A stretch of DNA of 34,472 nucleotides from Chitinophagales bacterium (GTDB taxonomy: Bacteria; Bacteroidota; Bacteroidia; Chitinophagales; Chitinophagaceae). Made by a program: the position numbers and the translations under genes. Every line of letters begins with the position of its first letter. Positions within the stretch are counted from its first letter, which is position 1. The stretch covers positions 1 to 34,472 of the forward strand of contig JAATGJ010000121.1 in the NCBI GenBank assembly GCA_015654695.1, written 5' to 3'. Below, one piece after another: positions 2,431 through 34,240 of the stretch. Under the pieces are notes generated by a model. That model searched no databases and was not told where the DNA came from. It saw only the letters and a program-made list of their open reading frames with translations.

Positions 2431-3183
2431 ATGAAAAAATTACAAAATAAAGTCGCTGTGATCACAGGTGGTAACAGTGGAATAGGATTATCAACTGCAA
2501 AATTATTTGCTGACCAGGGTGCCAGGGTGGCGGTAACAGGCCGTAACCTTGCATCTTTAAAAAATGCGGCGGAATTAATCGGTCATGGCGCTATCGGTAT
2601 TGCAGCGGATGTTTCAGATATAAAAAGCATCCTGAATTCCTATGAAGAAATAAATAAACAATTTGGCAAGATTGATATACTGATCGTCAACGCAGGCGTA
2701 GCCATTTCAAGTCCTTTAGCTGAATTTAGCGAAGAACAATTTGATCAGACCAGCAACACCAATTTCAAAGGGGCGTTCTTTTCAGTTCAGCGTTCATTGA
2801 CCTATCTGAATGACGGCGCTTCCATTATCCTCACTTCCAGCTCTACGAACGAAAAAGGTTTCGTCGGCTATGCGGCTTATGCGGCTACCAAGGCCGCGGT
2901 AAGATCATTAGCCAGGAGTTTTTCGGCAGAATTAATGAATCGCAATATCAGGGTGAATGTTTTATCGCCCGGTGCAATTGATACCCCGATGTATGGCAGA
3001 GGTGGTGGTTCAAAAGAAGAGGTTGATGGCATAAAAGACTATATGGCCAATTATATGATCCCCGCCAAACGTTTAGGAACTTCCGAAGAAGTTGCTGAGG
3101 CTTTTTTGTACCTGGCGTCAAGCGCTTCTAAATATATGATTGGATCTGAGCTGGTACTGGATGGGGGAGTAAAAACGCTTTAG
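2431..3183 (+). CDS. SDR-family NAD(P)-dependent oxidoreductase
   Basis: A 250-aa classical short-chain dehydrogenase/reductase, presumably cytosolic. The Rossmann cofactor loop TGGNSGIG (about residues 12-19) follows a 'KVAVI' strand. The NAG motif is present (about 88-90), the active-site Ser lies in 'ILTSSST', and the YxxxK catalytic pair is in 'YAATKAA'. The C-terminus has the usual 'SPGAIDTPM' and 'GSELVLDGGV'. Basic residues after the glycine loop ('VTGRN') favour NADP(H), as known for this family. The length is normal for classical SDRs. Divergent transcription from an HxlR regulator suggests a role in reducing a reactive carbonyl or quinone, but the substrate cannot be read from sequence. 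The start ATG is preceded by an A-rich stretch. Confidence 0.95.
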   Translation: MKKLQNKVAVITGGNSGIGLSTAKLFADQGARVAVTGRNLASLKNAAELIGHGAIGIAADVSDIKSILNSYEEINKQFGKIDILIVNAGVAISSPLAEFSEEQFDQTSNTNFKGAFFSVQRSLTYLNDGASIILTSSSTNEKGFVGYAAYAATKAAVRSLARSFSAELMNRNIRVNVLSPGAIDTPMYGRGGGSKEEVDGIKDYMANYMIPAKRLGTSEEVAEAFLYLASSASKYMIGSELVLDGGVKTL

Positions 3184-3503
3184 ATTTTTGAATCAATATT
3201 TCCGGATGATGGTGAATAAAAAAGAAAGACTGGGGCAGACGCATTAAAATCCGGGCAGAATAGCACACGGATTACACGGATCAGACGGATCTTCACAGAT
3301 TTTATTTTATAGATGAGTCCGGGCCTCGTCATAAAATAGTAAGAAATAGTTATAAAAAGGATCAATACAGATGTATTCTGCTTCGCAGGATAAAAATCCG
3401 TTTATATCCCGTATTCCCATTTTTCATTTTTAAAGAAGTTCTAAAACAATTTATCTTGTTACGTCGTGCTTTCATATTCCGGCCTGCTTGTATATCATTT
3501 GTA
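3184..3503. other. Gene-free interval with nonamer repeats
   Basis: 320 bases between the convergent SDR and response-regulator genes hold no convincing ORF. The recognisable structure is the tandem 9-base repeat at 3265-3300. The rest is A/T-rich, and I found no strong terminator hairpin. Confidence 0.6.
3265..3300. repeat. Tandem 9-base repeats (ACACGGATT type)
   Basis: Four consecutive nonamers read ACACGGATT, ACACGGATC, AGACGGATC and TTCACAGAT. Short 'cacggattacacggat' runs like this are familiar from intergenic regions of Bacteroidota genomes (general knowledge, not checked here). No function is known to me. Confidence 0.6.
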
Positions 3504-4145
3504 TCACATCAAATGGATATTGTATAAATCAGCGAGCTTTTTAATATCAAAGAGATTATCTGTTCCTAATTTGTTAAATATTCTTGTCTTGTAGGTAGCA
3601 ATTGTTTGTGGCTTTACACAAAGCTCTACGGCTATAGCCTTTGTTTTATTACCTTTCAGGATCAACCCGAGCACCCGCAGCTCGTTTACAGACAACCTGA
3701 GAAAAGCTTTGTAGCAGATATTTTGGGTTTCTTCGTACCGGATAGATTTTAGCGTCTCGCTCATATAAACGCCCCCGGTTAAAAATATCTCCAGGGCCCT
3801 TAGTATTTCTTTTTCATCAGCAGATTTACTTAAGAAACCTGAAGTACCGGCTTCCAGGATTTTCCTCGCATATACTCCTTCGGAGGCCATACTGTAAATA
3901 AGTATCTTTAACAGGGGATACTGTTCAATTATACCCGGAAGCGCTTCCATAGCGTTATAATCGCCAAGGGTGAGGTCCAGAATCAGGTGAGTGAAGTTGC
4001 CGGCCGGCAAAATTAATTGCATCTTTTCGAGCGATACTACTTCATTTACAACACAAGACAGGAAGTTTTGCGAGATTAAGTATTGCAGTCCGCGGGATAC
4101 GATACGGTGATCTTCTACGATCAGAATATTCTTTATATTGTCCAT
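3504..4145 (-). CDS. NarL/BvgA-type response regulator, intact paralogue
   Basis: A 213-aa two-component response regulator: receiver (about 5-122) then LuxR/GerE-type helix-turn-helix (about 148-205). The acidic pocket is E11/D12, the phospho-acceptor is Asp57 in 'LILDLTLGD', and the conserved Lys lies in 'FLSKSADE'. The HTH reads 'LSVNELRVLGLILKGNKTK' followed by 'TIATYKTRIFNKLGT', closer to the BvgA/EvgA subgroup (TYKTR) than to NarL itself. It lies 229 bases downstream of the hybrid kinase gene on the same strand, its most likely partner. A close paralogue, split by a frameshift, lies at 12390-13038. Its upstream region holds the shared palindromic element at 4208-4231, so auto- or cross-regulation is plausible (inference). 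Confidence 0.95.
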   Translation of the reverse strand: MDNIKNILIVEDHRIVSRGLQYLISQNFLSCVVNEVVSLEKMQLILPAGNFTHLILDLTLGDYNAMEALPGIIEQYPLLKILIYSMASEGVYARKILEAGTSGFLSKSADEKEILRALEIFLTGGVYMSETLKSIRYEETQNICYKAFLRLSVNELRVLGLILKGNKTKAIAVELCVKPQTIATYKTRIFNKLGTDNLFDIKKLADLYNIHLM

Positions 4146-4207
4146 ATTTCCTCAAAGCCTTAACCCCCGATGGGAAGATGGCAAATATCCAACACGATGA
4201 GTTATCA

Positions 4208-4231
4208 TTTTGTAGAATTGATAAGACAAAA
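4208..4231. promoter_or_regulatory. Shared palindromic element, copy 1
   Basis: TTTTGTAG, then AATTGATA, then AGACAAAA: an imperfect palindrome whose outer TTTTGT/ACAAAA arms pair perfectly. Copies at 6011-6034 and 13137-13160 match nearly base for base while flanking sequence differs. It begins 63 bases upstream of the response-regulator ATG at 4145. It is a candidate binding site for the island's NarL-type regulators, by inference. Confidence 0.6.
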
Positions 4232-4374
4232 TTTATCGGTCCCGGACGGCAAATTTGATGGAACAGGCAGGGTACCGGCATCATTCACCGGGAGAATTGA
4301 AACACCTCAACACGTCCCGGTAGAAACCGGGGACTTTCGCTTTAAATAAGATACCGCTAATGCTGATGAATCAA

Positions 4375-5808
4375 TTATTCAATGCTACCCATCCTGAACT
4401 CACATTGTATGGTGCATCCATTACCCGGTGAACTATCAATGAAAACGGTTCCATTAAAAGACTCCACCCTGTTGATCACATTGGAAATACCAATCCCTGT
4501 TCTTTTATTGGTCATATCAAACCCCGACCCGTCATCGCCGATTCTTATATCTATTTTTTCGCTGTCACCGACGACGGAAATAAACAGGTTTTTTGCCCCG
4601 GAATGTTTTAATGAATTGTACACCAGTTCCTGTGTGATCCGGTATATGTTTACTTTCAAATCATCATTAATATAGTTGTCCGGGACTTTGTAGGTAAATT
4701 CCGTTTTCATATCCGTGTTGGCTGACACCTGGTCCAATAACATTTCGATCATTTCCCTGAGATCAACATTTTTGAGCGGGGTTACATTCTGGCCGCTTAA
4801 TATCCGTATCTCACGTATAGATGTATCAATCAGATCCATGGGTTCCCTTATCAATTCCTTTGTTTTTTTATTTTTATCTGCTGCCAATTGTAAGAACAGT
4901 TTGATGCTGGCCAGTATCTGGTTGATATTATCATGTAATTCCTGGCCGATACGGTTCCTTTCTTTTTCCTGCGCATGAATTATAGCCCTTGTTATTTTCT
5001 TTTGTTCTTCTATTTTCTGGCTGAGTATCGTCTGCTCCATATCCCTGAGCAGGGCTTCAGCTTTTTTCCTCGCCGTAATATCCCTCATAAAAACGGAAAG
5101 TCCTTCCGGCGAAGGATAGATGTGACTTTCCAGCCAAATATCCAGCGGTGCATAATAATCAATAATACAATTATAACGCTGCTCCTCCATCGCTTTGACA
5201 AGACTTGAATAGGTGGCCGAGCCAACCACGTCAGGAAATTCTTTCCATACATTTTCCCCAAGCAATGATGTGGGGTGCCGCCGGATCAATGTCCCGGCCC
5301 TGCTATTAAGATATGTATAACGAAAGTATTTATCGAACGCTACAAACCCGTCAGATATGCGTTCCAGGAGACTCCGGTAATTTTCCTCGCTTAACCGGGT
5401 TTCCTCCTCCGCTTTTTGTTTTTCCAATTGAGCTTTTCGCTGTTTTACGGCAGCCTGTATGGCAGCCGGAAGCCTGGCGGGCCTGTCTTTTAAAATATAA
5501 TCATCTGCGCCTGATTTTATGATCTCAGCTCCAAACTCATCCGATGCTGTTGCAGTTATGAGTATAAATGGGATATGGGTTGAATGGGACCTTAGGATTT
5601 CCAGGGCTTCCTTTCCGTTAAACTGGGGCAGGGTATAGTCACATAATACTAAATGCGGCTGAAACTCATCCAACGACTGTAAATAAGAATGTTTATCAGT
5701 TACCACCAGGAAAATAAACGGTCGCAACGCTTTTTTGAGCAGGTCGTGTACCAGGTCGGCGTCGTACGGGTTATCCTCCAGCATCAGTATTTTCAATGGC
5801 TCGCTCAT
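4375..5808 (-). CDS. Hybrid sensor kinase: receiver-PAS-HisKA_3-HATPase
   Basis: A 477-aa soluble signalling protein with no signal peptide or membrane segment. Order: N-terminal receiver (about 5-125; acidic pair E11/D12, acceptor Asp57 in 'LVLCDYTLPQ', Lys in 'YILKDRPA'), a short coiled coil, a PAS domain (about 140-250), a second helix, then a HisKA_3 dimerisation domain. The phospho-acceptor is His292 in 'IGQELHDNINQIL'. The ATPase domain follows, with an N-box 'QELVYNSLKHSG', the G1 box 'DDGSGFD' and a later 'GIGISNV'. HisKA_3 kinases typically phosphorylate NarL-type regulators, and one lies directly downstream at 3504-4145. The N-terminal receiver suggests input from another kinase of the cluster. 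The PAS ligand is unknown. A shared palindrome (6011-6034) lies about 200 bases upstream. Confidence 0.94.
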   Translation of the reverse strand: MSEPLKILMLEDNPYDADLVHDLLKKALRPFIFLVVTDKHSYLQSLDEFQPHLVLCDYTLPQFNGKEALEILRSHSTHIPFILITATASDEFGAEIIKSGADDYILKDRPARLPAAIQAAVKQRKAQLEKQKAEEETRLSEENYRSLLERISDGFVAFDKYFRYTYLNSRAGTLIRRHPTSLLGENVWKEFPDVVGSATYSSLVKAMEEQRYNCIIDYYAPLDIWLESHIYPSPEGLSVFMRDITARKKAEALLRDMEQTILSQKIEEQKKITRAIIHAQEKERNRIGQELHDNINQILASIKLFLQLAADKNKKTKELIREPMDLIDTSIREIRILSGQNVTPLKNVDLREMIEMLLDQVSANTDMKTEFTYKVPDNYINDDLKVNIYRITQELVYNSLKHSGAKNLFISVVGDSEKIDIRIGDDGSGFDMTNKRTGIGISNVINRVESFNGTVFIDSSPGNGCTIQCEFRMGSIE

Positions 5809-6010
5809 GGGGGAATTTTCAAATCAGGTTTAATGAACACATAAGTGAAATACCGGTAAGGCTCATTTCATTTAAACGCTTTTTATATTGATATCTATTC
5901 TCTGAAAAACAAAGACCCTGTCAGGTTACTCTATTGTAATCCGTCTATAACCAGGTCAAATAAGGGTACTATTTTATTGAAATGTAAACCTAAGCAAGAA
6001 CGGAAATATC

Positions 6011-6034
6011 TTTTGTAGTATTAATAAGACAAAA
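6011..6034. promoter_or_regulatory. Shared palindromic element, copy 2
   Basis: TTTTGTAG, TATTAATA, AGACAAAA: same architecture as 4208-4231, with perfectly paired outer arms TTTTGT/ACAAAA. It lies in the 297-base gap between the downstream tandem sensor's 3' end and the hybrid kinase start. Apart from it and A/T-rich sequence, I see nothing else in that gap. Confidence 0.6.
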
Positions 6035-6105
6035 ATGTTCAATAATAAAATTAACTGCAGTAGTGTTTTTATTCGCCGGGGAACGTGCATGACATTTGAA
6101 AACAC

Positions 6106-9100
6106 TCAGCCAATGGTCAATGAGACGGTTGTGCCTTTGTTCAATCCACTTTCTATTGAAAGAGAAAAATCATGAATTTTTAACAGCTCTGCGATCATCA
6201 CGTAACCCAGGCCGGTGTTGATCTTATCAGTCGTTTTGACCGCATGCAAATTACCTTTGAGTATTTCCCTGATCACGTACAGGGTTTCCTCACTCATGCC
6301 CGACCCGGTATCGCTTATTTTTAAACCCGTTCTTCCGGCGATACCCGGTTTATTAAATGATATTCTTATTTCCCCGTTGGTAATATGTTTGATGGCATTG
6401 GAAACAAGGTTATTGAAAATGGTGGCCAGGATAGTATTATCCGCCTCAACAAATTTTGATTGAGGAACATCATTGATCAGGCTGACACCTTTACTTTTAG
6501 CAACCGGTATATAGATACCCAGCACTTCGTTGACAAGACTGTAAAGATGGATGGACCTCTTTTCAACGGTGATCTTCTTATTATTATACTTCATCCAATT
6601 GATGATCGTAAGGGACCCTGACAATAACTTTTCCGAAGTGGATTGAATGTCTGTCAACGCTTCCCTGGCTTTCTCCGGATCCTTTTCCAAGCCTTTTGCC
6701 AGGACGCCGGAAACAAAACTGATATGCCGGAGCGGTGTGGCCATGTCATGGGAAATAATGTTGATCAGCAGGTCTTTTACTACCACCTCTTTCGATAGCT
6801 CGGTGGTTTGCTCATCCACTTTTTTTTGCAACGCAGCCTTTTTCCTGCTAATGTTCCTTATTTTTAAGTGTAAAAAAAGCCAGATTAAAAAACCAACCGC
6901 GGCTGCCACGGCAATATAGAACCATACTTTTTCGTAAATACTTTTTTTCCTGGTAATAGTGATGGTCTTATAAGTAAAATCCATATTCCCAAAGCCGGTA
7001 CGTTTGCGTATAACCAGTTGATGTCTTCCGGAAGAAATTTCCACCAGCGTTATCCGTTGCTTATCCGCAACAGGTATTTTTTTCCATTCTTTATTATCAA
7101 AATTATATTCTAAAAACAGGTTATTGGGTTCGCCAAAATGGGGAACAACCAGGTCAATGGAAAGGTATTTAAAGCCTGGCGCAAGACTGATACTGTCCTT
7201 AGAATACTCAGTTTCTTTATTATCAATCAATACCTTCTCAATGACCGGGGTATCATCCGCAATTGTATTAATGAGGTCTCCCGGTTTAAACGTTACTATC
7301 CCCCCCATCGAAGGATAAAAGACCTGGCCGTTATTCAGTACTGCATAAGTGGGCACTCCTCTTCCATTAAATTCAGTATTATCAATGCCATCCGCTTTAC
7401 CGTAACTGAAGAAAAACGGGACTTCCGATCCATTACTTAAGGCCGACCCCACCACCGAAGCGGCCGTGGATTTGTACAAACCCCTGTCTGTGGGTATCCA
7501 TATAAAATTATCTTTATCAATATAAGTTGAATGACAGGAAACGAGCCCCTGGTCATCAATCCCTAAGGGAACCTTTAAAAACAGGTTCTTCTTAAGTACA
7601 TATAATCCTTCCCTGTAAACGGAAAGAATGAGTACATCTTTATACGGGCTGATATGCCTGACCTGCTTTCCCTGCATTTCCGGGATGCGGGTCATTTTAT
7701 ATGGGTACGATGTTTTCAGGATGTAAAGACCTGTTTCATTAGCTACAAAAGCCTCGTGCTTATTGATGCGGTAAAAAAGCCGGAGATCACAATGGTCTTT
7801 GTCGCTATCCCGTTTTCTGTCCAGTATAAGTCTTATCGTATTCAGCGTAAGGCAATGCAATTGATTGTTGGTGCTGACCCATACCGAATCGCCTTCAGGG
7901 AATACCATCATCACGTCTCCGGAGCTATCCAGCTTATTAAATGACTCATTATACGTGTGCCTGGCCCGGTAATTATCCCGGTGAGAATAATAATAAAGTT
8001 TGCCATTTTGAGTACATAAAATGCTCTTGTCATTCAGCAGTCCTATGGTTTCCCTCTGGCTAAATATGCTGCCTATTTTCCTGATTTCAGTTGCAGACGA
8101 AGTAGCCGTAAATTGAAACCCACTGGGAATGACAACAGTACTGTCACTCGTTTTAAGTACAGAATAGTTAATGACACCGTTCAGGATAGAATTCTGCAAC
8201 AGCATTTGCGTTGTATTGAATGTCTTTATCTTTTTCAACTTCACCTGGAAAAAACCTTCGTTTTCAGTACGAAGGAAAAAAGTAGAATTGATGCTGTCAT
8301 ATAGCATACCGGACCATATATGATTTTCACCGGGCAGGTTAAATTGAGGGAGAAATTTTATGGAATTTTTACCGGGATCAAAACTCAATAGGTAAAAACC
8401 GGACTTATAATAACAAATAGTTTCATCGCTGAAGGGATCACTATAAAAAAGAACATCCGCAGGTTTTGCACCCCTATTTTTAAAAATGCCCCAGTCAGTC
8501 TCTGTTTTGTTGAACTGCCCGGTAGTGGTGTCGTACACATACATGATATTTTGTACATCCAAAAGAAAACGTCGTCCTTTTGACAACAAAAAATTACTCG
8601 GACTATTAGCCACATTTATCAATCTTTCCCTGACCCCGTTTTTAAAATAGGCCAGCGTACCGGGCGCTGAGCCAGGATACCTCACAATAAAATCCGTCCC
8701 GTTCACCGGTAACACTGCATCTATCCTGGAATACCAATTTTCTTCATGATCAGAATGAGGCATTGCAAGATCAAATTTTTTAAACAGGGCAAGTGAGGGA
8801 TAATATCCCCGGGTTGGTGTTTCAAAATTGGCCATAGCCGTATCATAAAATAAAGTGAGAATACCGTTCCCTATAGAATAAGATGACCCGTCCCTTGTTT
8901 TCACTATTACCTTCTTTTCGGAGGGAATATGCATCATATACAATACTGCGCTTGTCCATTCATTCTTGTTCCTCTTGTTAAATAAATATGTTTTGAAATG
9001 GCTCCCATCATAACGTACTAGCCCGCTTCTGGTACCTACCCATAAATATCCATCATAATCCATCGTCATGGCGGTAATTTCATTTTGAAGCAGGCCATTT

Positions 9101-9210
9101 TCTGTATTAAAATTTTTAACCGTGCATTCGTACTGAGCGGGCAGATCACCGGTTGAAAAACATAACACAGAAAACAACAGAACCTTATATGTGGCTAAAG
9201 ATGTTTGCAA
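6106..9210 (-). CDS. Reg_prop/Y_Y_Y periplasmic sensor histidine kinase, tandem copy 2
   Basis: A 1034-aa inner-membrane sensor kinase. A signal peptide (about 1-26) leads into a periplasmic propeller-type sensor with Reg_prop repeats, for example 'ITAMTMDYDGYLWVGTRSGL' and 'DKDNFIWIPTDRGLYK'. A Y_Y_Y domain follows (about 680-750), then one membrane span (about 763-785), a basic helix, HisKA with His821 in 'IISHDMATPLRH', and HATPase_c (N-box 'NNLVSNAIKH', 'DTGSGMS', 'GLGYVMIAEL'). This is the sensor half of hybrid two-component systems, which usually also carry receiver and AraC domains. Here the protein ends after the ATPase, so output must go through a separate regulator. The start is TTG: an in-frame TAG lies just upstream and the next Met would remove the signal peptide. 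It follows its paralogue by 63 bases and is probably co-transcribed. Confidence 0.95.
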   Translation of the reverse strand: MQTSLATYKVLLFSVLCFSTGDLPAQYECTVKNFNTENGLLQNEITAMTMDYDGYLWVGTRSGLVRYDGSHFKTYLFNKRNKNEWTSAVLYMMHIPSEKKVIVKTRDGSSYSIGNGILTLFYDTAMANFETPTRGYYPSLALFKKFDLAMPHSDHEENWYSRIDAVLPVNGTDFIVRYPGSAPGTLAYFKNGVRERLINVANSPSNFLLSKGRRFLLDVQNIMYVYDTTTGQFNKTETDWGIFKNRGAKPADVLFYSDPFSDETICYYKSGFYLLSFDPGKNSIKFLPQFNLPGENHIWSGMLYDSINSTFFLRTENEGFFQVKLKKIKTFNTTQMLLQNSILNGVINYSVLKTSDSTVVIPSGFQFTATSSATEIRKIGSIFSQRETIGLLNDKSILCTQNGKLYYYSHRDNYRARHTYNESFNKLDSSGDVMMVFPEGDSVWVSTNNQLHCLTLNTIRLILDRKRDSDKDHCDLRLFYRINKHEAFVANETGLYILKTSYPYKMTRIPEMQGKQVRHISPYKDVLILSVYREGLYVLKKNLFLKVPLGIDDQGLVSCHSTYIDKDNFIWIPTDRGLYKSTAASVVGSALSNGSEVPFFFSYGKADGIDNTEFNGRGVPTYAVLNNGQVFYPSMGGIVTFKPGDLINTIADDTPVIEKVLIDNKETEYSKDSISLAPGFKYLSIDLVVPHFGEPNNLFLEYNFDNKEWKKIPVADKQRITLVEISSGRHQLVIRKRTGFGNMDFTYKTITITRKKSIYEKVWFYIAVAAAVGFLIWLFLHLKIRNISRKKAALQKKVDEQTTELSKEVVVKDLLINIISHDMATPLRHISFVSGVLAKGLEKDPEKAREALTDIQSTSEKLLSGSLTIINWMKYNNKKITVEKRSIHLYSLVNEVLGIYIPVAKSKGVSLINDVPQSKFVEADNTILATIFNNLVSNAIKHITNGEIRISFNKPGIAGRTGLKISDTGSGMSEETLYVIREILKGNLHAVKTTDKINTGLGYVMIAELLKIHDFSLSIESGLNKGTTVSLTIG

Positions 9211-9273
9211 GCCCTGTATTTTAATAGTATTCTATTTTGTCTTGTTTGTTTACAGATCAGATTTTTTGTTCAA

Positions 9274-12200
9274 TCAGGCGTTGCCTGGATTCATCGTAAT
9301 TGAGACAATGGTGCCCTTACCCATTTTACTTTCGATGGACACAGATAAATTATGAATTTTTTGGAGTTCTGAAATCATCAGGTAACCTAACCCGCTGCTT
9401 CTATCGGTTGATTTTAGCACCTGCAGATTGCCTTTGAGAACCTCCCTGACCATATCCAGTCTTTGTTCACTTATTCCCCTGCCCGTGTCAGCTATCTTTA
9501 ATACTATTGTTTTTCGACCGCCTGTCTCTTCCGCAAATATCCTGATCGTTCCCTCATCCGTATATTTCACCGCATTTGAAATAATATTGGTGAAGATGGT
9601 GTGCAGGATATTATAGTCGGCATTGATAGCCGTTGACTTTGGCACATCGTTTACAAAAACGATATTTTTACTTTTGGCGATGGGTATATATATATCCAGC
9701 GCTTCGTTTACAAGATCCCTTACATGGATCGCCTGTACACTTATCCCTATTTTTTTACTATTATACTTCATCCAGTTGATGACGGTGGCTGATCCGGCTA
9801 ATATCCGCTCCGAAGTCGTTTGAATGTCAGACAAGGCCTCATTGATTTTTTGGGAATCTTTTTCAAGTCCCATTCTTAAAGACTTTGCTACAATGGCCAC
9901 GTGCCGCTGCGGCGACATCATATCATGCGAGATAATGCTGATCAGCAGATCTTTTACCTCCATCTCTTTCGATAGCTCAATAGTTTGCTCGTCCACCCTT
10001 TTTTGCAACGTAGCTTTTTTCCGCTTGATATTCCGCGTTTTTAAGTGCAGGAAAAGCCAGATCAGGAAGCCGAAGACTCCTGCGAGAACAATATAGAACC
10101 ATACTTTCTCGTAAATGCCTTTTTGCCTGATGATAGTAATGGTCTTGTAAACATAATCCTCATTCCCAAAGCCCGTACGTTTGCGTATCACCAGTTGGTG
10201 TTTACCGGAAGATATATCCACGAGTGTTATCCGCTGACGGTCGTTGGCTAATACTTTTTTCCATCCTTTGCTGTCTATATTATACTCTAAAAAGAGATTT
10301 TGGGGATCACTGAAATTCGCTATACTTAAATCGATAGTAAGGTATTTAAAACTGGCATTTAAGTAAATACTGTCAGATACCTGGCTGGTTTCTTTATTAT
10401 CAATTACTATTTTTTCAATAATGACAGGTGAACTGGCAATGCTGTCAGCCAGCTCATTTAAATTAAATGTCACCACACCTCCCATAGAGGGATAAAATGC
10501 CTGTCCGTTATCCAGTACGGCATAAGTCGGCATTCCCCGGCCGTTAAATTCGATATTGTCAATGCCGTCTGCTTTACCATAGCTGAAAAAGAAAGGATAG
10601 TTTGATCCTGGCGTTAAAGCAGATTCAACAAGAGAAGCTACAGTAGACTTGTATAAACCTTTATCTGTAGGGATCCATATAAAACCATTTTTATCAAGAT
10701 AAGTTGAATGGCACGAACTGAGCTCCGGTTGATCCGGCATTACAGGTACTTTATAAAATTGATCATTTTTCATGACATATACTCCATTCCTGTACACGGA
10801 AAGAATGAGCATATCTTTATACGGACTGATATGCCGTACTTGTTTTCCAGTCATTTCCGGGATAATGGCCGTACTATACGGGTACGATGTTTTCAGCCTG
10901 TACAAATTTGAATCGTTGGCAATAAATGCTTCGTTATTATTGATACGATAAAAAAGCCGCAGGCCAAAATACTTCCAGCTCTTATCCCTTTCTATATCAT
11001 ATAAAAGCGTGAATTTATTCTTAGTAATATAGTGAAACTGGTTATCGCAGGCTACCCAAATTGAATCGCCTTCGGGATATATCAACTCAACCTTAGAAAG
11101 TTTACTTCTTTTATTATAAGCATCATTATATGCTTTTCTGGCCCGGTATCCATCATCAGGCGAATAAGCATTAATGCTGCCGCCATCAGTAGTTAAAATA
11201 CTTTTTTTGTCCACAAGGCTTATGGTTTCCCGCTCTCCGGTTACGTTTCCCAACTTTTTAGCGCTTATGCCGGAAGAACCGGAGGTAAACTGAAAACCGC
11301 TGGGGATAATAACAGTACTATCGCTTATTTTGAGGACGGCATAAATGGTGGCGCTGTTCAGGGCAGAGTTGGGCAACATTTCATTGATATTAAAGGTTTT
11401 TATTTTCTTTAATTTAACCTGGAAGAAACCTTCGTTTTGCGTGGAAAGAAAAAAAGTCGAATTGAGTTTATCATATACAACTCCTGTCCAGAAATGGCCT
11501 TTGTCTTTTATGGAAAATTGTGGTAAAAACTTCATTGTATTGCTTCCGGCATCAAATTGCAGCAAATAAAACGTGCCGTTATAAAAACAAAAAGATTCAT
11601 TACTGAAACTGTCGGAAAAAAAAAGAAGATGTCCCGGGGGTATATCGGCTTTTTTTAAGAGGCCCGGGTCTATGTTTATTTTACGGAACCGGTCGGTTGC
11701 CCGGTCATATAAATGCATCTCCTGACTATTGTCTGCAATAAAATAGGATCCGCTGGAAGGTAAAAGCTGGTCCAGTTTTATCCCGGTTTCTATAGCCCGC
11801 CACCTTATACCATCTTTCAGGTAGATAATGCCGCTGCTTGCAGAACTGCCGAGTATGAATGTGTTTTCATCAACAGGTAATACTTTCTTATAAAGACCTG
11901 TCCAGCCGGGCTGACTGGCCTTGCCTTTGCTTTTTAAAAAAAACTTGTTGAAAACAGCAAGGGAAGGAAAGCTTCCCTGGAACATCTCCCAGCCTTCGTT
12001 AAAATAAGTAGTATCAAAGCAGGAAACGGGTCTGCCGTTTTCAATTAAATAAAACCGGCCCGCCCTTGTTTTTATGATTGTTTTTCTATCCGACAAGGTA
12101 TGGATAGCATCAATAACATAATTTACTGTTGTATTACCAATATTATGGTCTTGTTCAAAGGAGAATATTTTTACGTCGGAGCCGTCATAACGCACAAGCC

Positions 12201-12387
12201 CGTTGCGGGTACCCACCCAGAGATAGCCGTCACTACCCATCGTCATGGCGGTAACTTCATTTAACGGCAGCCCGTTTTCTGTATTGATGTTTTTAATAGT
12301 GTAGTCGGATTGAGCAAAAACTACAGCGGCTATAAAGCAAAAAACAGCCGGCAAAACGGCTCTGTATATGATGGCGGATTTTTTCAA
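9274..12387 (-). CDS. Reg_prop/Y_Y_Y periplasmic sensor histidine kinase, tandem copy 1
   Basis: A 1037-aa paralogue of the protein encoded just downstream, with the same order: signal peptide ending near VVFAQ, Reg_prop propeller ('VTAMTMGSDGYLWVGTRNGL'), Y_Y_Y, one membrane span, HisKA and HATPase_c, and no receiver or DNA-binding domain. The phospho-acceptor is His821 in 'IISHDMMSPQRH', at the same residue number as in the copy. Long blocks are identical or nearly so, for example 'GKQVRHISPYKDMLILSVYR' and 'SYGKADGIDN', indicating tandem duplication followed by divergence, more marked in the sensor half. The start codon is TTG, two bases after the TGA of the regulator HTH fragment, which implies translational coupling. 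It likely responds to an extracytoplasmic ligand such as a glycan by family analogy; the ligand is unknown. Confidence 0.95.
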   Translation of the reverse strand: MKKSAIIYRAVLPAVFCFIAAVVFAQSDYTIKNINTENGLPLNEVTAMTMGSDGYLWVGTRNGLVRYDGSDVKIFSFEQDHNIGNTTVNYVIDAIHTLSDRKTIIKTRAGRFYLIENGRPVSCFDTTYFNEGWEMFQGSFPSLAVFNKFFLKSKGKASQPGWTGLYKKVLPVDENTFILGSSASSGIIYLKDGIRWRAIETGIKLDQLLPSSGSYFIADNSQEMHLYDRATDRFRKINIDPGLLKKADIPPGHLLFFSDSFSNESFCFYNGTFYLLQFDAGSNTMKFLPQFSIKDKGHFWTGVVYDKLNSTFFLSTQNEGFFQVKLKKIKTFNINEMLPNSALNSATIYAVLKISDSTVIIPSGFQFTSGSSGISAKKLGNVTGERETISLVDKKSILTTDGGSINAYSPDDGYRARKAYNDAYNKRSKLSKVELIYPEGDSIWVACDNQFHYITKNKFTLLYDIERDKSWKYFGLRLFYRINNNEAFIANDSNLYRLKTSYPYSTAIIPEMTGKQVRHISPYKDMLILSVYRNGVYVMKNDQFYKVPVMPDQPELSSCHSTYLDKNGFIWIPTDKGLYKSTVASLVESALTPGSNYPFFFSYGKADGIDNIEFNGRGMPTYAVLDNGQAFYPSMGGVVTFNLNELADSIASSPVIIEKIVIDNKETSQVSDSIYLNASFKYLTIDLSIANFSDPQNLFLEYNIDSKGWKKVLANDRQRITLVDISSGKHQLVIRKRTGFGNEDYVYKTITIIRQKGIYEKVWFYIVLAGVFGFLIWLFLHLKTRNIKRKKATLQKRVDEQTIELSKEMEVKDLLISIISHDMMSPQRHVAIVAKSLRMGLEKDSQKINEALSDIQTTSERILAGSATVINWMKYNSKKIGISVQAIHVRDLVNEALDIYIPIAKSKNIVFVNDVPKSTAINADYNILHTIFTNIISNAVKYTDEGTIRIFAEETGGRKTIVLKIADTGRGISEQRLDMVREVLKGNLQVLKSTDRSSGLGYLMISELQKIHNLSVSIESKMGKGTIVSITMNPGNA

Positions 12388-12389
12388 GA

Positions 12390-12593
12390 TCAGGAAAAAT
12401 TAATATTGTAGAGCTCGGCCAGCTTTTGTATATCGAAAATATTATCCGTTCCCAGCTTTTTAAATATCCGTGTTTTATAGGTGGCTATGGTTTGCTGCGC
12501 TACATTCATCTCACTGACGATCTCTTTTGTTTTATTTCCTTTGAGAATGGAACCAAGCACTTTTAACTCGGTAATAGATAAATGCTGGAACAT
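12390..12593 (-). CDS. LuxR-type HTH fragment of frameshifted response regulator
   Basis: A 67-aa ORF encoding only the DNA-binding domain of a NarL/BvgA-type regulator: 'LSITELKVLGSILKGNKTK' and 'TIATYKTRIFKKLGT'. It is roughly 70% identical to the HTH of the intact paralogue at 3504-4145. It is out of frame with the receiver ORF upstream. Removing one G from the G8 tract at 12660-12667 joins the two into one ~215-aa protein with a natural linker. Translation of this fragment alone from the ATG at 12593 would need re-initiation. Its TGA stop lies two bases before the TTG of the tandem sensor kinase, so it sits in the same transcript. It may be part of a pseudogene, a phase-variable gene or a sequencing artefact. 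Confidence 0.75.
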   Translation of the reverse strand: MFQHLSITELKVLGSILKGNKTKEIVSEMNVAQQTIATYKTRIFKKLGTDNIFDIQKLAELYNINFS

Positions 12594-12624
12594 ATTTTCA
12601 CCGGGGCCATCCTGGTGGGCGGAA

Positions 12625-13038
12625 TCAATTGATCGTTTTAATTTTTTGCTGAGAAATATCCCCCCCCTGCAAAAAGACCTGTAATGCCCTTACTACCTCG
12701 TCTTCCGGAGATTTCTTGCTCAGGAAGCCGGAAATATTGAACTGCATTAATTTTTTACCAAAGACTTCTTCGGAGGCCATGCTGTAAATGAGTATATACA
12801 GGTCGGGGTACTTGCCTGTTACTTCCGGGAGCACATCAATAGAATTACCATCATCCAGGTTTAAGTCTAATATTAAATGCGTAAAGTCATCTGAAGGCAA
12901 CCGTAGCAATAGCTCTTTCAGCGATGAAACTTCCGTAATAATGCAACCGCTAAAGTTTAATGTGATCAGGTAACGCAATCCTCTTGAAACGATGCTATGG
13001 TCATCAGCAATCAGAATTTTCTTTATACTGTCCATCAT
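12625..13038 (-). CDS. Receiver fragment of frameshifted response regulator
   Basis: The receiver half of a NarL/BvgA-type response regulator that should be about 215 aa. It has 'KKILIADDHSIVSRG' (acidic pair), the acceptor Asp in 'LILDLNLDDG', and the Lys in 'FLSKKSPED'. All parallel the intact paralogue at 3504-4145. After 'VFLQGG' the frame leaves the homology and stops at TGA, giving 137 aa from the ATG at 13038. A TTG-initiated extension to 13089 is possible but has no counterpart in the paralogue. The frame break falls exactly at the G8 run. With G7 the reading continues 'GGIFLSKKLKRSI' into the HTH ORF. As it stands, the product would be a phosphorylatable receiver without a DNA-binding domain. 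It heads the likely operon with both tandem sensor kinases. Confidence 0.8.
   Translation of the reverse strand: MMDSIKKILIADDHSIVSRGLRYLITLNFSGCIITEVSSLKELLLRLPSDDFTHLILDLNLDDGNSIDVLPEVTGKYPDLYILIYSMASEEVFGKKLMQFNISGFLSKKSPEDEVVRALQVFLQGGDISQQKIKTIN
12660..12667 (-). other. G8 homopolymer tract causing the frameshift
   Basis: Eight consecutive C on the plus strand (G8 in the coding direction) encode the Gly-Gly after the receiver's last helix. Eight Gs put the HTH out of frame; seven Gs would restore a full regulator. The intact paralogue has only a five-G run at the equivalent place. Such runs are prone to slipped-strand changes, and also to sequencing miscalls. Confidence 0.8.
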
Positions 13039-13136
13039 CAGCGAAAAGTTTTTAAGTGATCCCGGGATCGGATAGCTAAGTGTTTTCAAATGGTGAAGTG
13101 ATAATACTATAGTGAAAGCCAGTCGTTAAAACCTCA

Positions 13137-13160
13137 TTTTGTAGTATTGATAAGACAACC
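13137..13160. promoter_or_regulatory. Shared palindromic element, copy 3
   Basis: TTTTGTAG, TATTGATA, AGACAA then CC: 22 bases match the copies at 4208 and 6011 closely, though the outermost right arm is degraded. A second half-like TAAGACAAAA follows at 13173-13182. It lies between the divergent regulator (13038) and membrane kinase (13233) genes, so a bound regulator could act on both. Confidence 0.6.
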
Positions 13161-13200
13161 TGTAATTAAAAGTAAGACAAAAAGGGCTTTACCGCCATTC

Positions 13201-13208
13201 TATTTTTG
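13201..13208 (+). promoter_or_regulatory. -7 element (TATTTTTG) for the membrane kinase gene
   Basis: TATTTTTG matches TAnnTTTG and ends 24 bases before the ATG at 13233. The shared palindrome lies about 40 bases further upstream, a position compatible with activation. No clear -33 TTG is seen. Confidence 0.4.
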
Positions 13209-13232
13209 TTCTAACCAATAAGAACTACAATC

Positions 13233-14741
13233 ATGACCAGCCTTAAATCATTCATCAGCCATTTACCTCTTGCCGGGTGTTTATCCCCAGCCGCTTATAA
13301 TGGAAACTTTATAAGCCATTTAACGGGTTTTCATCCTCCCGTACCAAATCCTTTACCTGAAAAACCATTAACCATGAAAAAGTTCCGACTGAAATTTCCT
13401 GAACTCGTTTACCTGCAAAAAACAAGGGATGGCCTCCTGCTAAAGCAGGCGGAAATATTGAAAGCTTTCAGTGTACTCACTGCCGGGTTGCTTATCATTT
13501 ATTTCTTTGTATTTAAAATATTTCATTTTATCCAGTCGGGTGTATCCGCTACTTTAATCATCGCCTCTCCTTTACTGCTTGCTCTTGTTCTGGTGAGAAT
13601 AGTGTACAGCAAAAGATATTTATATGGTTTGTTTATTATCACCTGGCTGCTGCCCGCACTCATGATGCTTGTTTCCATCTGCTACCCTGAAATTAATTAC
13701 TCCAAAATTTTACTGGTATTCGTACTGGCGACGCTCCTGCTTAATAATTCAAAACGGAAAAGACTGATTGGTTTTTCCTGGTTAACGATCTCTTATGCTT
13801 TTATCCAGCTCAGGTTCTTTTTTATTCATATAGGCATAGAAAGCGACAGGCGCCTGCCCCTGGAAATAATTATGCTTCCCATATTCTGCTTTACTGTATT
13901 CCTGATACTGTCAAGGATCAAAAAAGAATTTACCGTTTATCAAAGAGAGATCGGGCAGCAAAAAGAAACGCTGGAAAAAAAGAATGAATCGCTGGAAAGC
14001 GTGGTTTCCTTCAGCGAGCAACAAAGAGAAAAATTAAAACGCACTGTTTTATTAAAAGAGAAACTGATCTCTATTATTTCACATGATGTACGTGTTCCCA
14101 TCAATTCTTTTAAATTCTTAATTGACAATTTTGAAAAGGGATATATACCGGAGAAAATGTTTTTGGATGGCATTATTGAAACCAAAAAGGATTTAATAAA
14201 AATGGACAATATGGTGGTGGACCTGGTGAATTGGTCGAAGAACGAAAAAGTAAATGACACCCCGCAGTTGATTTCACATCAACAGCTACACGATATTATG
14301 GAATCCGTGCTGTCCATCTATACATTATGCGCGAAGAATAAAAACATAGATATCGTTCCGCTTATAGAACTGCCTGAGAATACCTGCCTTTCTATCCCGA
14401 AACCTGAATTAGAAATTATCATCCGGAACCTTTTGTCCAATGCTATCAAATTTTCCAATCCCGGGGAAAAGATCATTGTCAGCATCAAAGCAAAGCCCGG
14501 CGTTTCATCACAGGTAACATTGAGCGTTAAAGATACCGGCACCGGCATTTATCCTTCTGTATTAGAGAGGTTAAATGGCAACAGGGTGATCTCCACCATC
14601 GGTACCCTGCATGAAGTGGGGCTGGGAGTAGGGCTAAGCATTGTATTCGATGTGATCAATAACCACAACCTCCAGTATGATATCCAAAGCGAAATGGGCA
14701 AGGGAACAAAATTTTCAATCATTATCCCTATGGTAGTCTGA
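13233..14741 (+). CDS. Multi-pass membrane sensor histidine kinase
   Basis: A 502-aa HisKA histidine kinase. After a start-proximal stretch without family features come five or six hydrophobic spans (about 70-235), for example 'FSVLTAGLLIIYFFVFKIF' and 'LEIIMLPIFCFTVFLIL'. A coiled coil (about 235-275) follows, then HisKA with His284 in 'IISHDVRVPINSF', and HATPase_c with 'RNLLSNAIKFSN', 'DTGTGI' and 'GLGVGLSIV'. No receiver or output domain is present. The kinase core resembles those of the two tandem Reg_prop sensors, so it may feed the same regulators. Start choice is uncertain: ATG 13233 has a typical A-rich leader and a promoter element, but ATG 13374 (MKKFRLK) begins where conserved sequence seems to begin. 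It is divergent from the frameshifted regulator. Confidence 0.92.
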   Translation: MTSLKSFISHLPLAGCLSPAAYNGNFISHLTGFHPPVPNPLPEKPLTMKKFRLKFPELVYLQKTRDGLLLKQAEILKAFSVLTAGLLIIYFFVFKIFHFIQSGVSATLIIASPLLLALVLVRIVYSKRYLYGLFIITWLLPALMMLVSICYPEINYSKILLVFVLATLLLNNSKRKRLIGFSWLTISYAFIQLRFFFIHIGIESDRRLPLEIIMLPIFCFTVFLILSRIKKEFTVYQREIGQQKETLEKKNESLESVVSFSEQQREKLKRTVLLKEKLISIISHDVRVPINSFKFLIDNFEKGYIPEKMFLDGIIETKKDLIKMDNMVVDLVNWSKNEKVNDTPQLISHQQLHDIMESVLSIYTLCAKNKNIDIVPLIELPENTCLSIPKPELEIIIRNLLSNAIKFSNPGEKIIVSIKAKPGVSSQVTLSVKDTGTGIYPSVLERLNGNRVISTIGTLHEVGLGVGLSIVFDVINNHNLQYDIQSEMGKGTKFSIIIPMVV

Positions 14742-14825
14742 TAAACAATCCGTATTCATGAGAGAAGAAACCATACCCTGTAAATAAAAAACCCGTACCC
14801 TATTCTTTTAAACCTATAGAAAATT

Positions 14826-16661
14826 ATGAAATCAATTATCCTCTTTTTATTATTTCTTCCTTTAGCCACATTTTCGCAGGCGCCCGGCGGTGTTTCTTCG
14901 AATATTAAATTGTGGGTAAAAGCAGAACTTGGGATCAGCACTTCCGGCGCAAATATTATTGACTGGGATGACCAAACCAACACCAACACATTTTCGGTTA
15001 CCGGAACACCAAAGTTTGCTTCCCATGACGTGAACTACAACTTCTCTATTGCCTTCGACGGTTCAAGCCGTTTTGTCGGTAATACATCCATTGCAAATAC
15101 CACGCATGCATTTGTCGTTGGCAAAATTGCAAACCCATCCGGTGTCACTGCTTCGGGAGCATTGATGGGCAGCACAACTGTATCTTCCCATCAATATTTT
15201 TTTCATACCCAGGGCGGAACGCTTTATTGTGGTGGAAATACAAACAGCATTTACACCGGTTATACCAGCACTAACTCTGTTCCTTACAGTATTCTTTCCG
15301 AAGACCTGGGTAAAACGCCTGCAGCAGCCGACATGATAAGGCTTAACGGGGAAAATAAAACCAATAGTTCAGGTAATGACCCGGCTGTTTACAACGGTAT
15401 TCCGACTATCGGATCAAGAGGAACGGAAAATATACTGAATGGAAGCGAAATAGCCGAAGCTATACTATATAACACTTCCTTAAGCGCTGTCAATGTCAAC
15501 AAAATAGAATCTTATCTCGCTATAAAATATGGTATTACTTTAAGCAATGCCGGCGGTGGTACAGCCGGCGATTATACATCGAGCGGGGGAACGATCATCT
15601 GGGATGCAGATAATGGCAGCGGTTACCATAATGATGTAATCGGTATCGGCAGAAATGATAATTCGGCTTTGATACAACGCCAGTCACGTCAATCGGATGA
15701 CAGCACGAGAATATACCTGTCAGAACTTGGATGGGATAATTGGGACAACGACGGAGTATTTGCCACCAATAATCAATTTATCATGATGGGGCATAATGGC
15801 CAGAAACTAAGGCACACGTTTGGTAATAATGAATACCCCGCCGGTCTCGGCATTTACAGTCGTATAGACCGGGAGTGGAAAATAACCAATACCAATTTTA
15901 CCGGAACTTTTTCCTTAGATGTAAAACTGAATACTTCGCCCGTTACTGCTTCCCATCTGCGCATCCTGGTAGATGATGACGGTAATTTCAGCAATGCTGC
16001 GTTATACAACCCAACTATAAGTTATTCCGGCGGAGAGGTTACCATATCCGGTATATCTAATTCGATGATACCGGCTAACACTACGAAATACCTCACGATC
16101 GTGTCAATAAACTCCTCAACTCCTTTACCTGTGGGGCTTGTCAATTTTACGGCAGCGGCTTTTGAAAACAAATATGTAAACCTTAACTGGCAAACAGCTT
16201 CGGAGAACAATAACCGCTTTTTTGGCATTGAACGTTCAACGGACGGTAATCAATGGCAGGAAATCGGCAGGGTGAACGGTGCGGATAATTCTGCCCGGTT
16301 ATTATCTTATTCCTATGTGGACAACAACCCGGTTGAAAGAACCTGTTACTACAGGTTGAAACAAGTTGATAATGATGGAAACTTTTCTTATTCGGAGATA
16401 AGGATTGTTAAGCCTGACCTTTCGGCCGGTAAAGAACTGATGATATATCCTAATCCTGCAACCGGCCAGATCATTATTAAAGCAAAAGAAAAAATATTAC
16501 CCGGTATCATCGTTTACGATGCAACGGGCAGGAATGTCAGCCCCTATGTTAAAACTACAGTAACGGATGACTGGCGTTTAATGGTTGATTTGGCAAACCT
16601 GCCCCCGGGCATATATATTCTTAAAACAAAAAATGCAGTAGCGAAATTAATGAGGCTTTAA
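14826..16661 (+). CDS. T9SS-secreted protein with C-terminal sorting domain
   Basis: A 611-aa exported protein. It has a signal peptide (about 1-18, ending FSQA) and an N-terminal jelly-roll-like region starting 'GVSSNIKLWVKAELGI'. This is typical of DUF8202/LamG-like domains in large Bacteroidota surface proteins, with 'AEAILYN...LSAVNVNKIESYLAIKYGI' closing it. A middle region (about 250-420) is rich in Asp, Asn and Gly. A fibronectin-like linker contains 'VNLNWQTASENNNRFFGIERS'. The last ~75 residues are a type-A type IX secretion sorting domain: 'MIYPNPATGQIIIKA', 'VYDATGRNV', 'LANLPPGIYILKTK' and a basic end. It is therefore probably released or anchored on the cell surface by T9SS. Its binding target is unknown. 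A hairpin terminator lies about 55 bases downstream. Confidence 0.93.
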   Translation: MKSIILFLLFLPLATFSQAPGGVSSNIKLWVKAELGISTSGANIIDWDDQTNTNTFSVTGTPKFASHDVNYNFSIAFDGSSRFVGNTSIANTTHAFVVGKIANPSGVTASGALMGSTTVSSHQYFFHTQGGTLYCGGNTNSIYTGYTSTNSVPYSILSEDLGKTPAAADMIRLNGENKTNSSGNDPAVYNGIPTIGSRGTENILNGSEIAEAILYNTSLSAVNVNKIESYLAIKYGITLSNAGGGTAGDYTSSGGTIIWDADNGSGYHNDVIGIGRNDNSALIQRQSRQSDDSTRIYLSELGWDNWDNDGVFATNNQFIMMGHNGQKLRHTFGNNEYPAGLGIYSRIDREWKITNTNFTGTFSLDVKLNTSPVTASHLRILVDDDGNFSNAALYNPTISYSGGEVTISGISNSMIPANTTKYLTIVSINSSTPLPVGLVNFTAAAFENKYVNLNWQTASENNNRFFGIERSTDGNQWQEIGRVNGADNSARLLSYSYVDNNPVERTCYYRLKQVDNDGNFSYSEIRIVKPDLSAGKELMIYPNPATGQIIIKAKEKILPGIIVYDATGRNVSPYVKTTVTDDWRLMVDLANLPPGIYILKTKNAVAKLMRL

Positions 16662-21647: not shown

Positions 21648-22400
21648 CTATTGTATCCCGAGTAGTTGGGCCAGCCTGTCTTTGTTTGACCGGGAAACCC
21701 TGATCACGTCATCATTGATCATGATTGCCTCCGGCGATTCACCTTTCCGGAATTTCTTAATATGGTTCAGGTTCACCAGGTAGGATTGGTGTACCCGCTC
21801 AAACAACCCGGCTGGCATAAGTTCCTGCGTGCGACCAAGGTTTCTGGAGATCAGGAAACTTTTTTCATTGTCCAAAATGATCTGTGTATAGGCGCCGGCG
21901 GCTTTGCAATAGATGATATGTGCAGGATCTACCAGGTGATGGCCATTGTTAACCGGTAAGGCCAGTTTTCCTTTCGGGCTTTCTGCTACCGGGTAATCCA
22001 TTATATTTTTCAGGAGACTATGGTAATCCGGGGGAACGCTGCCGCGATCAATGACCTTCTTTACAGCATCCTGCAGTTCACCCGGGTCAACCGGCTTTAA
22101 TAGATAATCCACCGCATTGACTTTAAACGCCCGGACCGCAAATTCACTATACGCCGAAACAAAAATGATCTGTGAACGGATGGGTTGTTTTAGTTCCCTG
22201 ACAAAGTCAAACCCATTCATGACCGGCATGTCTATGTCCAGGAAGATCACCTGCGTGGTATGAGATTGTAAAAACTCCAGCGCCCCGGAAGCTTTTATGA
22301 AAACGGCTTTTACCCGCACATCCGGGCAATAAGTTTCCAGGTCAAACTTCAGTGCTGTAATTGCTTTTTTCTCATCGTCTATTATTATAGCTTCAATCAT
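21648..22400 (-). CDS. LytTR-family response regulator
   Basis: A 250-aa response regulator: receiver (about 1-120) and LytTR DNA-binding domain (about 145-245). The receiver has 'IIIDDEKKA', acceptor Asp55 in 'VIFLDIDMPVMNG', 'VSAYSEFAVRAF' and the Lys in 'YLLKPVDP'. The LytTR part has 'HIIYCKAAGAYTQIIL', 'LISRNLGRTQELM' and 'FERVHQSYLVNLNHIKKF', all family signatures. Its start overlaps the end of the upstream sensor kinase gene by 8 bases, which indicates a cognate pair made by coupled translation. LytTR regulators of this type in Bacteroidota act next to surface-sugar or extracellular-structure genes; no such target lies adjacent here. Confidence 0.96.
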   Translation of the reverse strand: MIEAIIIDDEKKAITALKFDLETYCPDVRVKAVFIKASGALEFLQSHTTQVIFLDIDMPVMNGFDFVRELKQPIRSQIIFVSAYSEFAVRAFKVNAVDYLLKPVDPGELQDAVKKVIDRGSVPPDYHSLLKNIMDYPVAESPKGKLALPVNNGHHLVDPAHIIYCKAAGAYTQIILDNEKSFLISRNLGRTQELMPAGLFERVHQSYLVNLNHIKKFRKGESPEAIMINDDVIRVSRSNKDRLAQLLGIQ

Positions 22401-25400: not shown

Positions 25401-25407
25401 GTATCAC
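22393..25407 (-). CDS. LytS-type sensor histidine kinase with Reg_prop/Y_Y_Y periplasmic sensor
   Basis: A 1004-aa membrane sensor kinase. After a signal peptide (about 1-23) come Reg_prop propeller repeats ('VSGILQDQYGFLWISTLNGF', 'MYIDRSGVLWVGTNGYGL', 'LWCSSNKGIFAF'), a Y_Y_Y domain ('IRYRYQLTGFDKNW', 'LPPGDYTLLLNAS'), and one membrane span (about 745-770). A short helix leads to a His_kinase (PF06580-type) domain with His807 in 'MNPHFIFNCLNS', then HATPase_c ('PVIENAIIHGL', 'DNGIGRAAA'). It differs from the two tandem Reg_prop sensors at 6106-12387 in using the LytS-type core instead of HisKA. The start is GTG at 25407, directly before the signal peptide. It overlaps the LytTR regulator gene by 8 bases, its partner. 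Confidence 0.96.
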   Translation of the reverse strand: MIPQFVKLLAYFCCFILTGKLVAQQPQVSRIITVRDGLPQSYVSGILQDQYGFLWISTLNGFSRYDGRGFKHYWHNSGDTTGMSSNIILHIMDVGNDQLLLCYMDGKLDIFNTESEKIIHLGNKLPFDRLKSESGFFKSLVTNNKGLCWMIASDGGINQIDIYHNNIEHFTASQLELKEPVSGLAFQKEQLFILTQTLLSTRKKITGAAQTSYYPFSIVKASNFKSGNFYSPWIRENGELIISDANGIIIWNPASHTFKQLSLPRKTGSAKLIAHSNDTGNYFFEYNGGVYIIRPDDSIVPLLPATESVKGSPTSMYIDRSGVLWVGTNGYGLRQYNLMKFGMPGYTNQHSFVMDVLSHYGLAPQYATQTFLRNSVPFANRTATRKEMVWIADVHHQTPDPQLVLFANKMLSVKTFLRDDAAGKSETHSVKFISYDQNGLLWGIDQLAHLLQFNTDKLTFTVYPKINLEPVNEINGLVPGGENIFYISNPNDLVKFDASTGVTESLTTSLPSKDLLTISNDPDDKEVLWIGTLSDGLIRFNKSTRKTQVYSIATGLPNNTIYSIIPVSDHELWCSSNKGIFAFNKKTADIRSFTSRDGLIDDEFNRYYYMMLPDTSLAFGGPMGYTLFKPGALQVDEFDPTIALTDISVSNLPQLPGSLARLKELRLTHNQNFITAEFAAMQFDVPDKIRYRYQLTGFDKNWVMTGNENKASYTSLPPGDYTLLLNASNTSGKWSSHVRSIHIIIAPPFWKTWWFYLITGITLCVLIYLFLHARIRRIKKAHARQLQFEREAGELHAMALRAQMNPHFIFNCLNSIKALIQEKQDTKAIKYLTTFVSLIRKQLNNTNNQVKLTDELQTCRLYLELEAMRFDERINFHFDIAEDELVKQVMVPPLIVQPVIENAIIHGLLPREEGGWIDIKVHSKNNQVICEIKDNGIGRAAAAKLKEKSSLLHQSKGIHLLEERINLHGLINQKFNSLETTDLYHSNGQPAGTRVIIKFNTNYD

Positions 25408-32811: not shown

Positions 32812-32915
32812 GATTGTTGTTTTATTGTCTGTTATTAATATTTATGACCGACTATTCTTATGAATTCAGCAAATGAAAGGGGGCAAGTACTATATATAAC
32901 GTATTCCTTATCGAA

Positions 32916-34205: not shown

Positions 34206-34240
34206 TGTTTTATTTTTTACTCGTTATTTTATTGTTTTCA

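Follow-up and report, generated by a model that had tools for sequence, protein, structure and literature searches.

Operators of NarL/FixJ-family response regulators, such as NarL, RcsB, DevR, EvgA and VraR, are short inverted repeats with a small spacer that receive a dimer of LuxR-type helix-turn-helix (HTH) domains. NarL sites consist of heptamers in a 7-2-7 arrangement, and the RcsB and probably the EvgA sites are related with other spacing. Autoregulation by way of an inverted repeat near position -42 is a known kind of system, and class II activator sites are centred near -41.5. Here we describe an element that is likewise a short inverted repeat and recurs in three intergenic regions of a signalling gene island in a Chitinophagales bacterium (assembly GCA_015654695.1, contig JAATGJ010000121.1); the whole stretch analysed, 34,472 nucleotides long, is called the window below. 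The island encodes an intact response regulator (RR1), a paralogue of it in two overlapping frames (RR2) and sensor kinases. Solved relatives of RR1, as judged by sequence, include EvgA, DevR, VraR, NarL and RcsB. Comparison across genomes leads us to conclude that the element is most likely the autoregulatory operator of RR1, and probably of the frameshifted RR2 too.

Three inverted repeats in a signalling island

The element lies at 4208-4231 (TTTTGTAGAATTGATAAGACAAAA), 6011-6034 (TTTTGTAGTATTAATAAGACAAAA) and 13137-13160 (TTTTGTAGTATTGATAAGACAACC), exactly where an earlier sequence-only reading of the window had placed it, and all three copies fall in gaps of one minus-strand signalling cluster. 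They differ pairwise at one or two of their first 22 bases, the number it had counted, and the outer arms TTTTGT/ACAAAA that it described pair fully in copies 1 and 2, with copy 3 ending in ACAACC. Two of its statements need narrowing. It had taken the palindromic element to be 22-24 bp long: the inverted repeat is real, but the conserved core, judged from relatives, is the inner 18 bp. It had also called the flanks unrelated, which is correct in general but not for copies 1 and 3; these have four additional left bases in common (TCAT), and their likeness extends to 22-mer pairs starting at 4204 and 13133.

The 18-bp cores occupy 4211-4228, 6014-6031 and 13140-13157, and their pattern, TGTNNTANNANTNCTACA, is an inverted repeat with 12 fixed positions. 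All three cores run in the same direction and face the minus-strand signalling genes. We refer to them as the putative operators O1, O2 and O3. O1 (TGTCTTATCAATTCTACA, 4211..4228, minus strand, extended 4208-4231) has its 5' end 83 bases upstream of the RR1 start, and O2 (TGTCTTATTAATACTACA, 6014..6031, minus strand, extended 6011-6034) has its 5' end 223 bases upstream of a kinase gene of REC-PAS-HisKA_3 type (the PAS kinase). O3 (TGTCTTATCAATACTACA, 13140..13157, minus strand, extended 13137-13160) lies upstream of the frameshifted RR2 and faces a divergent kinase gene. Each carries 12 of the 12 core positions; none of 4000 shuffles reached the scores of O1 and O2, the core pattern having been derived in part from O1.

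None of 10 dinucleotide-shuffled windows contained any 22-mer pair at least 200 bases apart with no more than two mismatches, and the other such pairs of the real window lie nearly all within the paralogous regulator and kinase genes. When three mismatches are allowed, TTTTGTAGN8AGACAAAA has four matches in the window (the three copies and one at 30035) against 0.91 expected, a number that 0 of 100 shuffles reached. The 9-mer AAGACAAAA is present four times exactly in the entire window, both strands counted, and always in island gaps. One of these half-sites (13174..13182, plus strand) stands just upstream of the -7 box of the divergent kinase gene, between that box and O3. Another is isolated (9235..9243, minus strand) in the gap upstream of propeller kinase 1, a gap in which no core reaches 9 of the 12 positions.

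Conservation with orthologous regulators and promoter geometry

The sequence-only reading had set conservation in relatives as a test of the element. Six genomes of the same genus (one of them 64% complete) contain no RR1 orthologue, the best match being 34% identical, so conservation was read from other genera. The sets searched, which overlap, comprised 394 genomes of the family, 396 of the order, 33 and 15 of the genera of two genomes designated G498 and G128, and 16 of the family of a third, G025. Outside the window five clear orthologues (E<=1e-36) were found in four genomes of other genera or families: two in G498 (48% and 49% identical to RR1) and one each in G128 (51%), G232 (41%) and G025 (39%). 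All five have the core upstream, at 11-12 of the 12 positions; its 5' end precedes the start codon by 72-82 bases, and the element passed this test. Scoring of G232 and G025 began only once the core pattern had been set from the window, G498 and G128; the G025 upstream region had been viewed earlier but played no part in setting the pattern. Core scores as high as those of G232 and G025 were reached by 4 and 3 of 4000 shuffles, respectively, and their core-plus-box scores by 0 of 4000.

The element thus precedes every orthologue found and, in addition, one receiver-only relative. The latter, in G438 (L169), lacks the HTH domain, is 44% identical to RR1 over 131 residues and is preceded by the core TGTCTTATAAAACCTACA (7 of 4000 shuffles), with TAATTTTA 21 bases after it. 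This protein may be a remnant or a competitor.

A second feature recurs with the core. In four of the five orthologue promoters a perfect TAnnTTTG box lies downstream of it, twice in G498 (21 bases) and once each in G232 (23 bases) and G025 (20 bases); with one mismatch the box is found at 21 bases in front of RR1, the PAS kinase and the G438 gene. In the window these one-mismatch boxes are GATATTTG (4182..4189, minus strand) downstream of O1 and TAGGTTTA (5985..5992, minus strand) downstream of O2, each with 5 of the 6 positions and each a match to the composite pattern with one mismatch. Overall, 7 of 9 sites (RR1, PAS kinase, G498 twice, G438, G232 and G025) combine a core-to-box spacer of 20-23 bases with a box of at least 5/6 positions.

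In a report on Bacteroidota promoters, the same TAnnTTTG sequence is the -7 box of Flavobacterium psychrophilum sigma-A and spans -12 to -5 (PMC9723704). Because of this span and the 21-base spacer, the core centre would fall near -42, which is the position of a class II activator, with start sites deduced from the box. Compared with these sigma-A promoters, the box is the same and perfect in G498 (two), G232 and G025, whereas the window boxes of RR1 and the PAS kinase carry one mismatch and the -33 element is apparently replaced by the operator. In 7 of the 9 clade sites the distance from core to box would put the centre near -42. At O3 the geometry differs. The divergent kinase gene has a perfect -7 box (TATTTTTG, 13201..13208, plus strand) 43 bases past O3, a distance about two helical turns longer than at the other sites; we infer that O3 acts divergently.

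RR1 itself has a receiver (PF00072, residues 7-118) followed by a LuxR-type HTH (PF00196, residues 151-201), the domain order of the NarL/FixJ family. Its recognition helix (QTIATYKTRIFNKLGTDN) and that of RR2 (QTIATYKTRIFKKLGTDN) are nearly identical; those of the G498 and G128 orthologues are close to both, those of G232 and G025 less so. Since the helix is almost the same, RR2, if made, would be expected to bind the sites of RR1, in keeping with the earlier suggestion that both paralogues share them.

We therefore favour, at a probability of roughly 85%, a model in which the three elements are operators of RR1, and of RR2 while it is functional, with an RR1 dimer activating RR1 and the PAS kinase and with O3 placed for both directions. 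In this model a sensor kinase would phosphorylate RR1, and phosphorylated RR1 would form a dimer on the 18-bp inverted repeat by way of its LuxR-type HTH domains. The dimer at O1 and O2 would be centred near -42, beside sigma-A, at a weak promoter in which a -7-like box is present and the operator takes the place of a -33 box, and would activate transcription of RR1 and the PAS kinase in class II fashion, giving positive feedback. O3, between the genes for RR2, kinase 2 and kinase 1 on one side and those for the divergent kinase and a secreted protein on the other, would be positioned to control both directions.

Several results weigh against this model. RR2 and the G128 orthologue have the core but lack a -7 box where one would be expected (19-24 bases on the RR2 side), and 72 of 4000 shuffles reach the core-plus-box score of RR2 (O3) and 54 of 4000 that of G128. 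No conservation at close range could be read from the same-genus genomes, and in the two largest orthologue searches at most seven candidates were scored per genome. A core at 11-12 of 12 positions also precedes 2 of 52 more distant regulators of a discovery set and 2 of 59 other regulators fetched later (both sets are described below), so the core is not exclusive to the RR1 clade.

It is also conceivable, if rather unlikely, that the same operator serves a regulator repressing its own genes (negative feedback), or that it is bound by some other regulator of the cell. The extended copies stretch into the expected -33 region, an arrangement that could suit a repressor too, and sequence alone does not show the sign of regulation. 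On the other hand, a centre near -42, combined with a weak -7 box and no -33 box that can be recognised, is what an activated promoter usually looks like; the site tracks the RR1 clade across genera, and among nine other regulators sampled in the own genome eight score below 11/14 for the wider family palindrome described below.

Very improbable, in our judgement, is a functionless leftover of the duplication of a regulator-kinase unit. RR1 and RR2 (53-59% identical over RR2's parts) and kinases 1 and 2 (56%) are indeed paralogues, and copies 1 and 3 share their four extra bases. Copy 2, however, stands upstream of a kinase gene that is unrelated, the gaps separating the paralogous units contain no 22-mer pairs apart from the elements, and the core is kept in other genera. 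The same three points support the view of the sequence-only reading that the pattern indicates selection on a binding site.

How specific the element is to the island could be judged from genome-wide counts, another test that the sequence-only reading had set. The exact core matches three times in 5.42 Mb (187 contigs), every time in the island, and the 24-mer with up to three mismatches finds the three copies and one site within a long open reading frame (ORF). Across five genomes the exact 12-position core occurs three times in the own genome (G000) and twice in G498, against 11 matches of a reversed control in the same five; the two G498 matches are the two regulator promoters, from which, with the window sites, the pattern was partly built. 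There is no exact match in G128, G025 or G232, and none elsewhere in the own genome or G498. In 194 other genomes of the family the 24-mer (up to three mismatches) gave one match each in seven, against 18 matches of the reversed control, and in 395 other genomes of the order a looser pattern gave 15 sites in 13 genomes against 12 for the control. None of 23 loci taken for such near-matches (L041-L063) encodes a family regulator according to local hidden Markov model (HMM) searches. Two identical matches in G314 turned out to be a repeated coding segment, and of 14 matches to the composite pattern the 10 with three mismatches, which occurred at control level, were discarded. A genome-contig search with RR1 returned only two remote relatives, 31% and 22% identical. 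A scan for sigma-70-type promoters, which showed no excess over shuffles (34 vs 38.0), was not used.

With these counts a dispersed repeat (REP or MITE-like) or a recombination site is hardly credible: the element is short, palindromic and intergenic, as such a repeat would be, but it has three copies genome-wide, in one orientation and all upstream of signalling genes, and in the other family genomes it is rarer than its reversed control. Equally remote is an RNA element acting after transcription (leader hairpin, riboswitch or terminator), which the inverted repeat upstream of genes might suggest, as folding is no better than that of shuffles (z +0.82, +0.54 and +1.35), no Rfam match reaches gathering scores in 3000-14800, and the site lies upstream of the deduced start site.

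In one of the two G498 loci (G498-C12), in G128 and in G025 the next gene after the regulator encodes a kinase of about 1030 residues, and Pfam detects propeller repeats in two of the three; no such kinase follows in the second G498 locus (G498-C1), and in G232 the contig ends too early. As a kinase stands next to the regulator in most orthologue loci, the operator usually fronts a regulator-kinase module as a unit, which suggests that autoregulation may be built into the regulator-propeller kinase module.

Further core-like sites were seen in two of these genomes. In G025 (L097, 2037-2054) a second site, TGTAGTCGAAATTCTACA, with AATATTTG 21 bases on, lies upstream of the gene for a large, probably secreted protein with an SdrD_B match below the Pfam cut-off, directly downstream of the regulator-kinase pair. 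This gene is a candidate output gene; taken with the gene of the window for a protein with a type IX secretion tail, it gives a weak hint that outputs may lie on the cell surface. In G498 one core-like site (TGACTTATTATTTCTACA, L094, 7794-7817) lies about 1 kb upstream of the regulator and another (CGTAATAGTATTTCTACA, L095, 7754-7771) 413 bases upstream; both are in long gaps that, by eye, also contain repeated palindromic stretches. The L094 regulator has no kinase directly after it and a sulfatase gene downstream (10167-11702), a hint that it may act close to genes for polysaccharide use.

A related palindrome in the wider family

The discovery set consisted of 52 more distant regulators, mostly about 25-38% identical and originally meant as controls (54 loci, two dropped for want of a suitable ORF). 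Several of their promoters contain near-perfect palindromes, from which we derived the form TGTAGAA-N4-TTCTACA; only a set fetched later served as a test. In the discovery set 13 of 52 promoters reach at least 12/14 at spacer 4, against 2 of 520 tests at ten other spacings. The later set held 60 regulators that had not been examined before (40 being all usable ones from one RR1 search and 20 of many from another), or 58 after two near-duplicates were dropped. With the test unchanged, 12 of the 58 reach at least 12/14 at spacer 4, compared with 2 of 580 at the ten other spacings and 0 of 290 shuffles at spacer 4. The two sets are not fully independent, as 17 of the 58, including 6 of the 12 strong sites, have a BLAST match to a discovery promoter; without those 17, strong sites number 6 of 41. 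The enrichment upstream of regulators is thus confined to spacer 4. Among 61 neighbouring non-regulator genes of the discovery loci 11 reach 11/14, and 9 of these 11 are the same site viewed from a divergent neighbour.

A relaxed form of the -7 box, [TG]AnnTTnG, follows 9 of 25 strong sites at 20-22 bases and occurs once elsewhere within 50 bases. Nineteen loci holding the palindrome class-wide were also fetched; two have a strong family regulator directly downstream, and in one of these (L137) a propeller-repeat protein comes next.

The window core looks like a divergent version of this wider operator. We lean slightly towards the view that TGTAGAA-N4-TTCTACA and its clade variants could amount to a legible DNA code shared by a large branch of the NarL-type regulators of Bacteroidota, of which many are partnered by propeller or related sensor kinases, and that the strong-site regulon in the own genome would be the island itself, a nearly closed feedback circuit. 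The relaxed box was chosen after the 25 sites had been viewed, and several counts speak against a general code. Promoters below 12/14 make up 46 of the 58 fetched later, and a perfect match to the strict TAnnTTTG at 21 bases occurs just once among the 25 strong sites. Nine other regulators of the own genome (L178-L186) include eight below 11/14, one at 11 and none at 12. A universal palindrome confined to regulators was supported neither by the 19 fetched loci nor by 395 genomes of the class, which gave 22 exact sites against 25 of the reversed control. Many members deviate from the palindrome or lack it, and any code is therefore limited to part of the family.

Neither the 7-N4-7 form of TGTAGAA nor the asymmetric version of the window is known to match the NarL, RcsB or EvgA sites. 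The sequence-only reading knew of no described site of this form, and searches of the open-access literature found none, either of this form or for this branch of regulators. On that basis the particular site, its conservation with the RR1 clade and the wider TGTAGAA-N4-TTCTACA signal are apparently new. A site with near-fixed spacing to a -7 box offers a direct and cheap test of what such regulators bind, and the operator pattern provides a route to sequence-based searches for their targets; relatives of the own genome hold up to 43 RR1 matches each. If the wider code is real, the way in which many unstudied two-component systems regulate themselves would be predictable from sequence, as would some of their outputs, for example the large-protein gene of G025.

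Genes of the island and of the rest of the window

Domains were assigned with Pfam. On the minus strand, RR1 (Response_reg and GerE; 3504..4145) is followed in coordinate order by the REC-PAS-HisKA_3-HATPase kinase (4375..5808) and by two propeller sensor kinases with Reg_prop to HATPase architecture, kinase 1 (6106..9210) and kinase 2 (9274..12387). RR2 (12399..13044, minus strand) is divided into a receiver part (12625-13044) and an HTH part (12399-12677). Within the overlap of its two frames lies a C8 run (12660-12667; eight G on the coding strand), and the frame change could stem from on/off switching by slippage, from decay or from an assembly error. On the plus strand are the divergent kinase (HATPase_c; 13233..14741) and, after it, the gene for the protein bearing the type IX secretion tail (14826-16661). 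This tail, the propeller kinases and the -7 box point to the phylum Bacteroidota.

Outside the island, a further propeller kinase of His_kinase/Y_Y_Y type is encoded at 22393-25407, with no strong core match nearby. Near the window end, similar 22-mers recur 1325 bases apart (32915-33029 and 34240-34353), a pattern suggestive of a gene duplicated in tandem and truncated where the contig stops.

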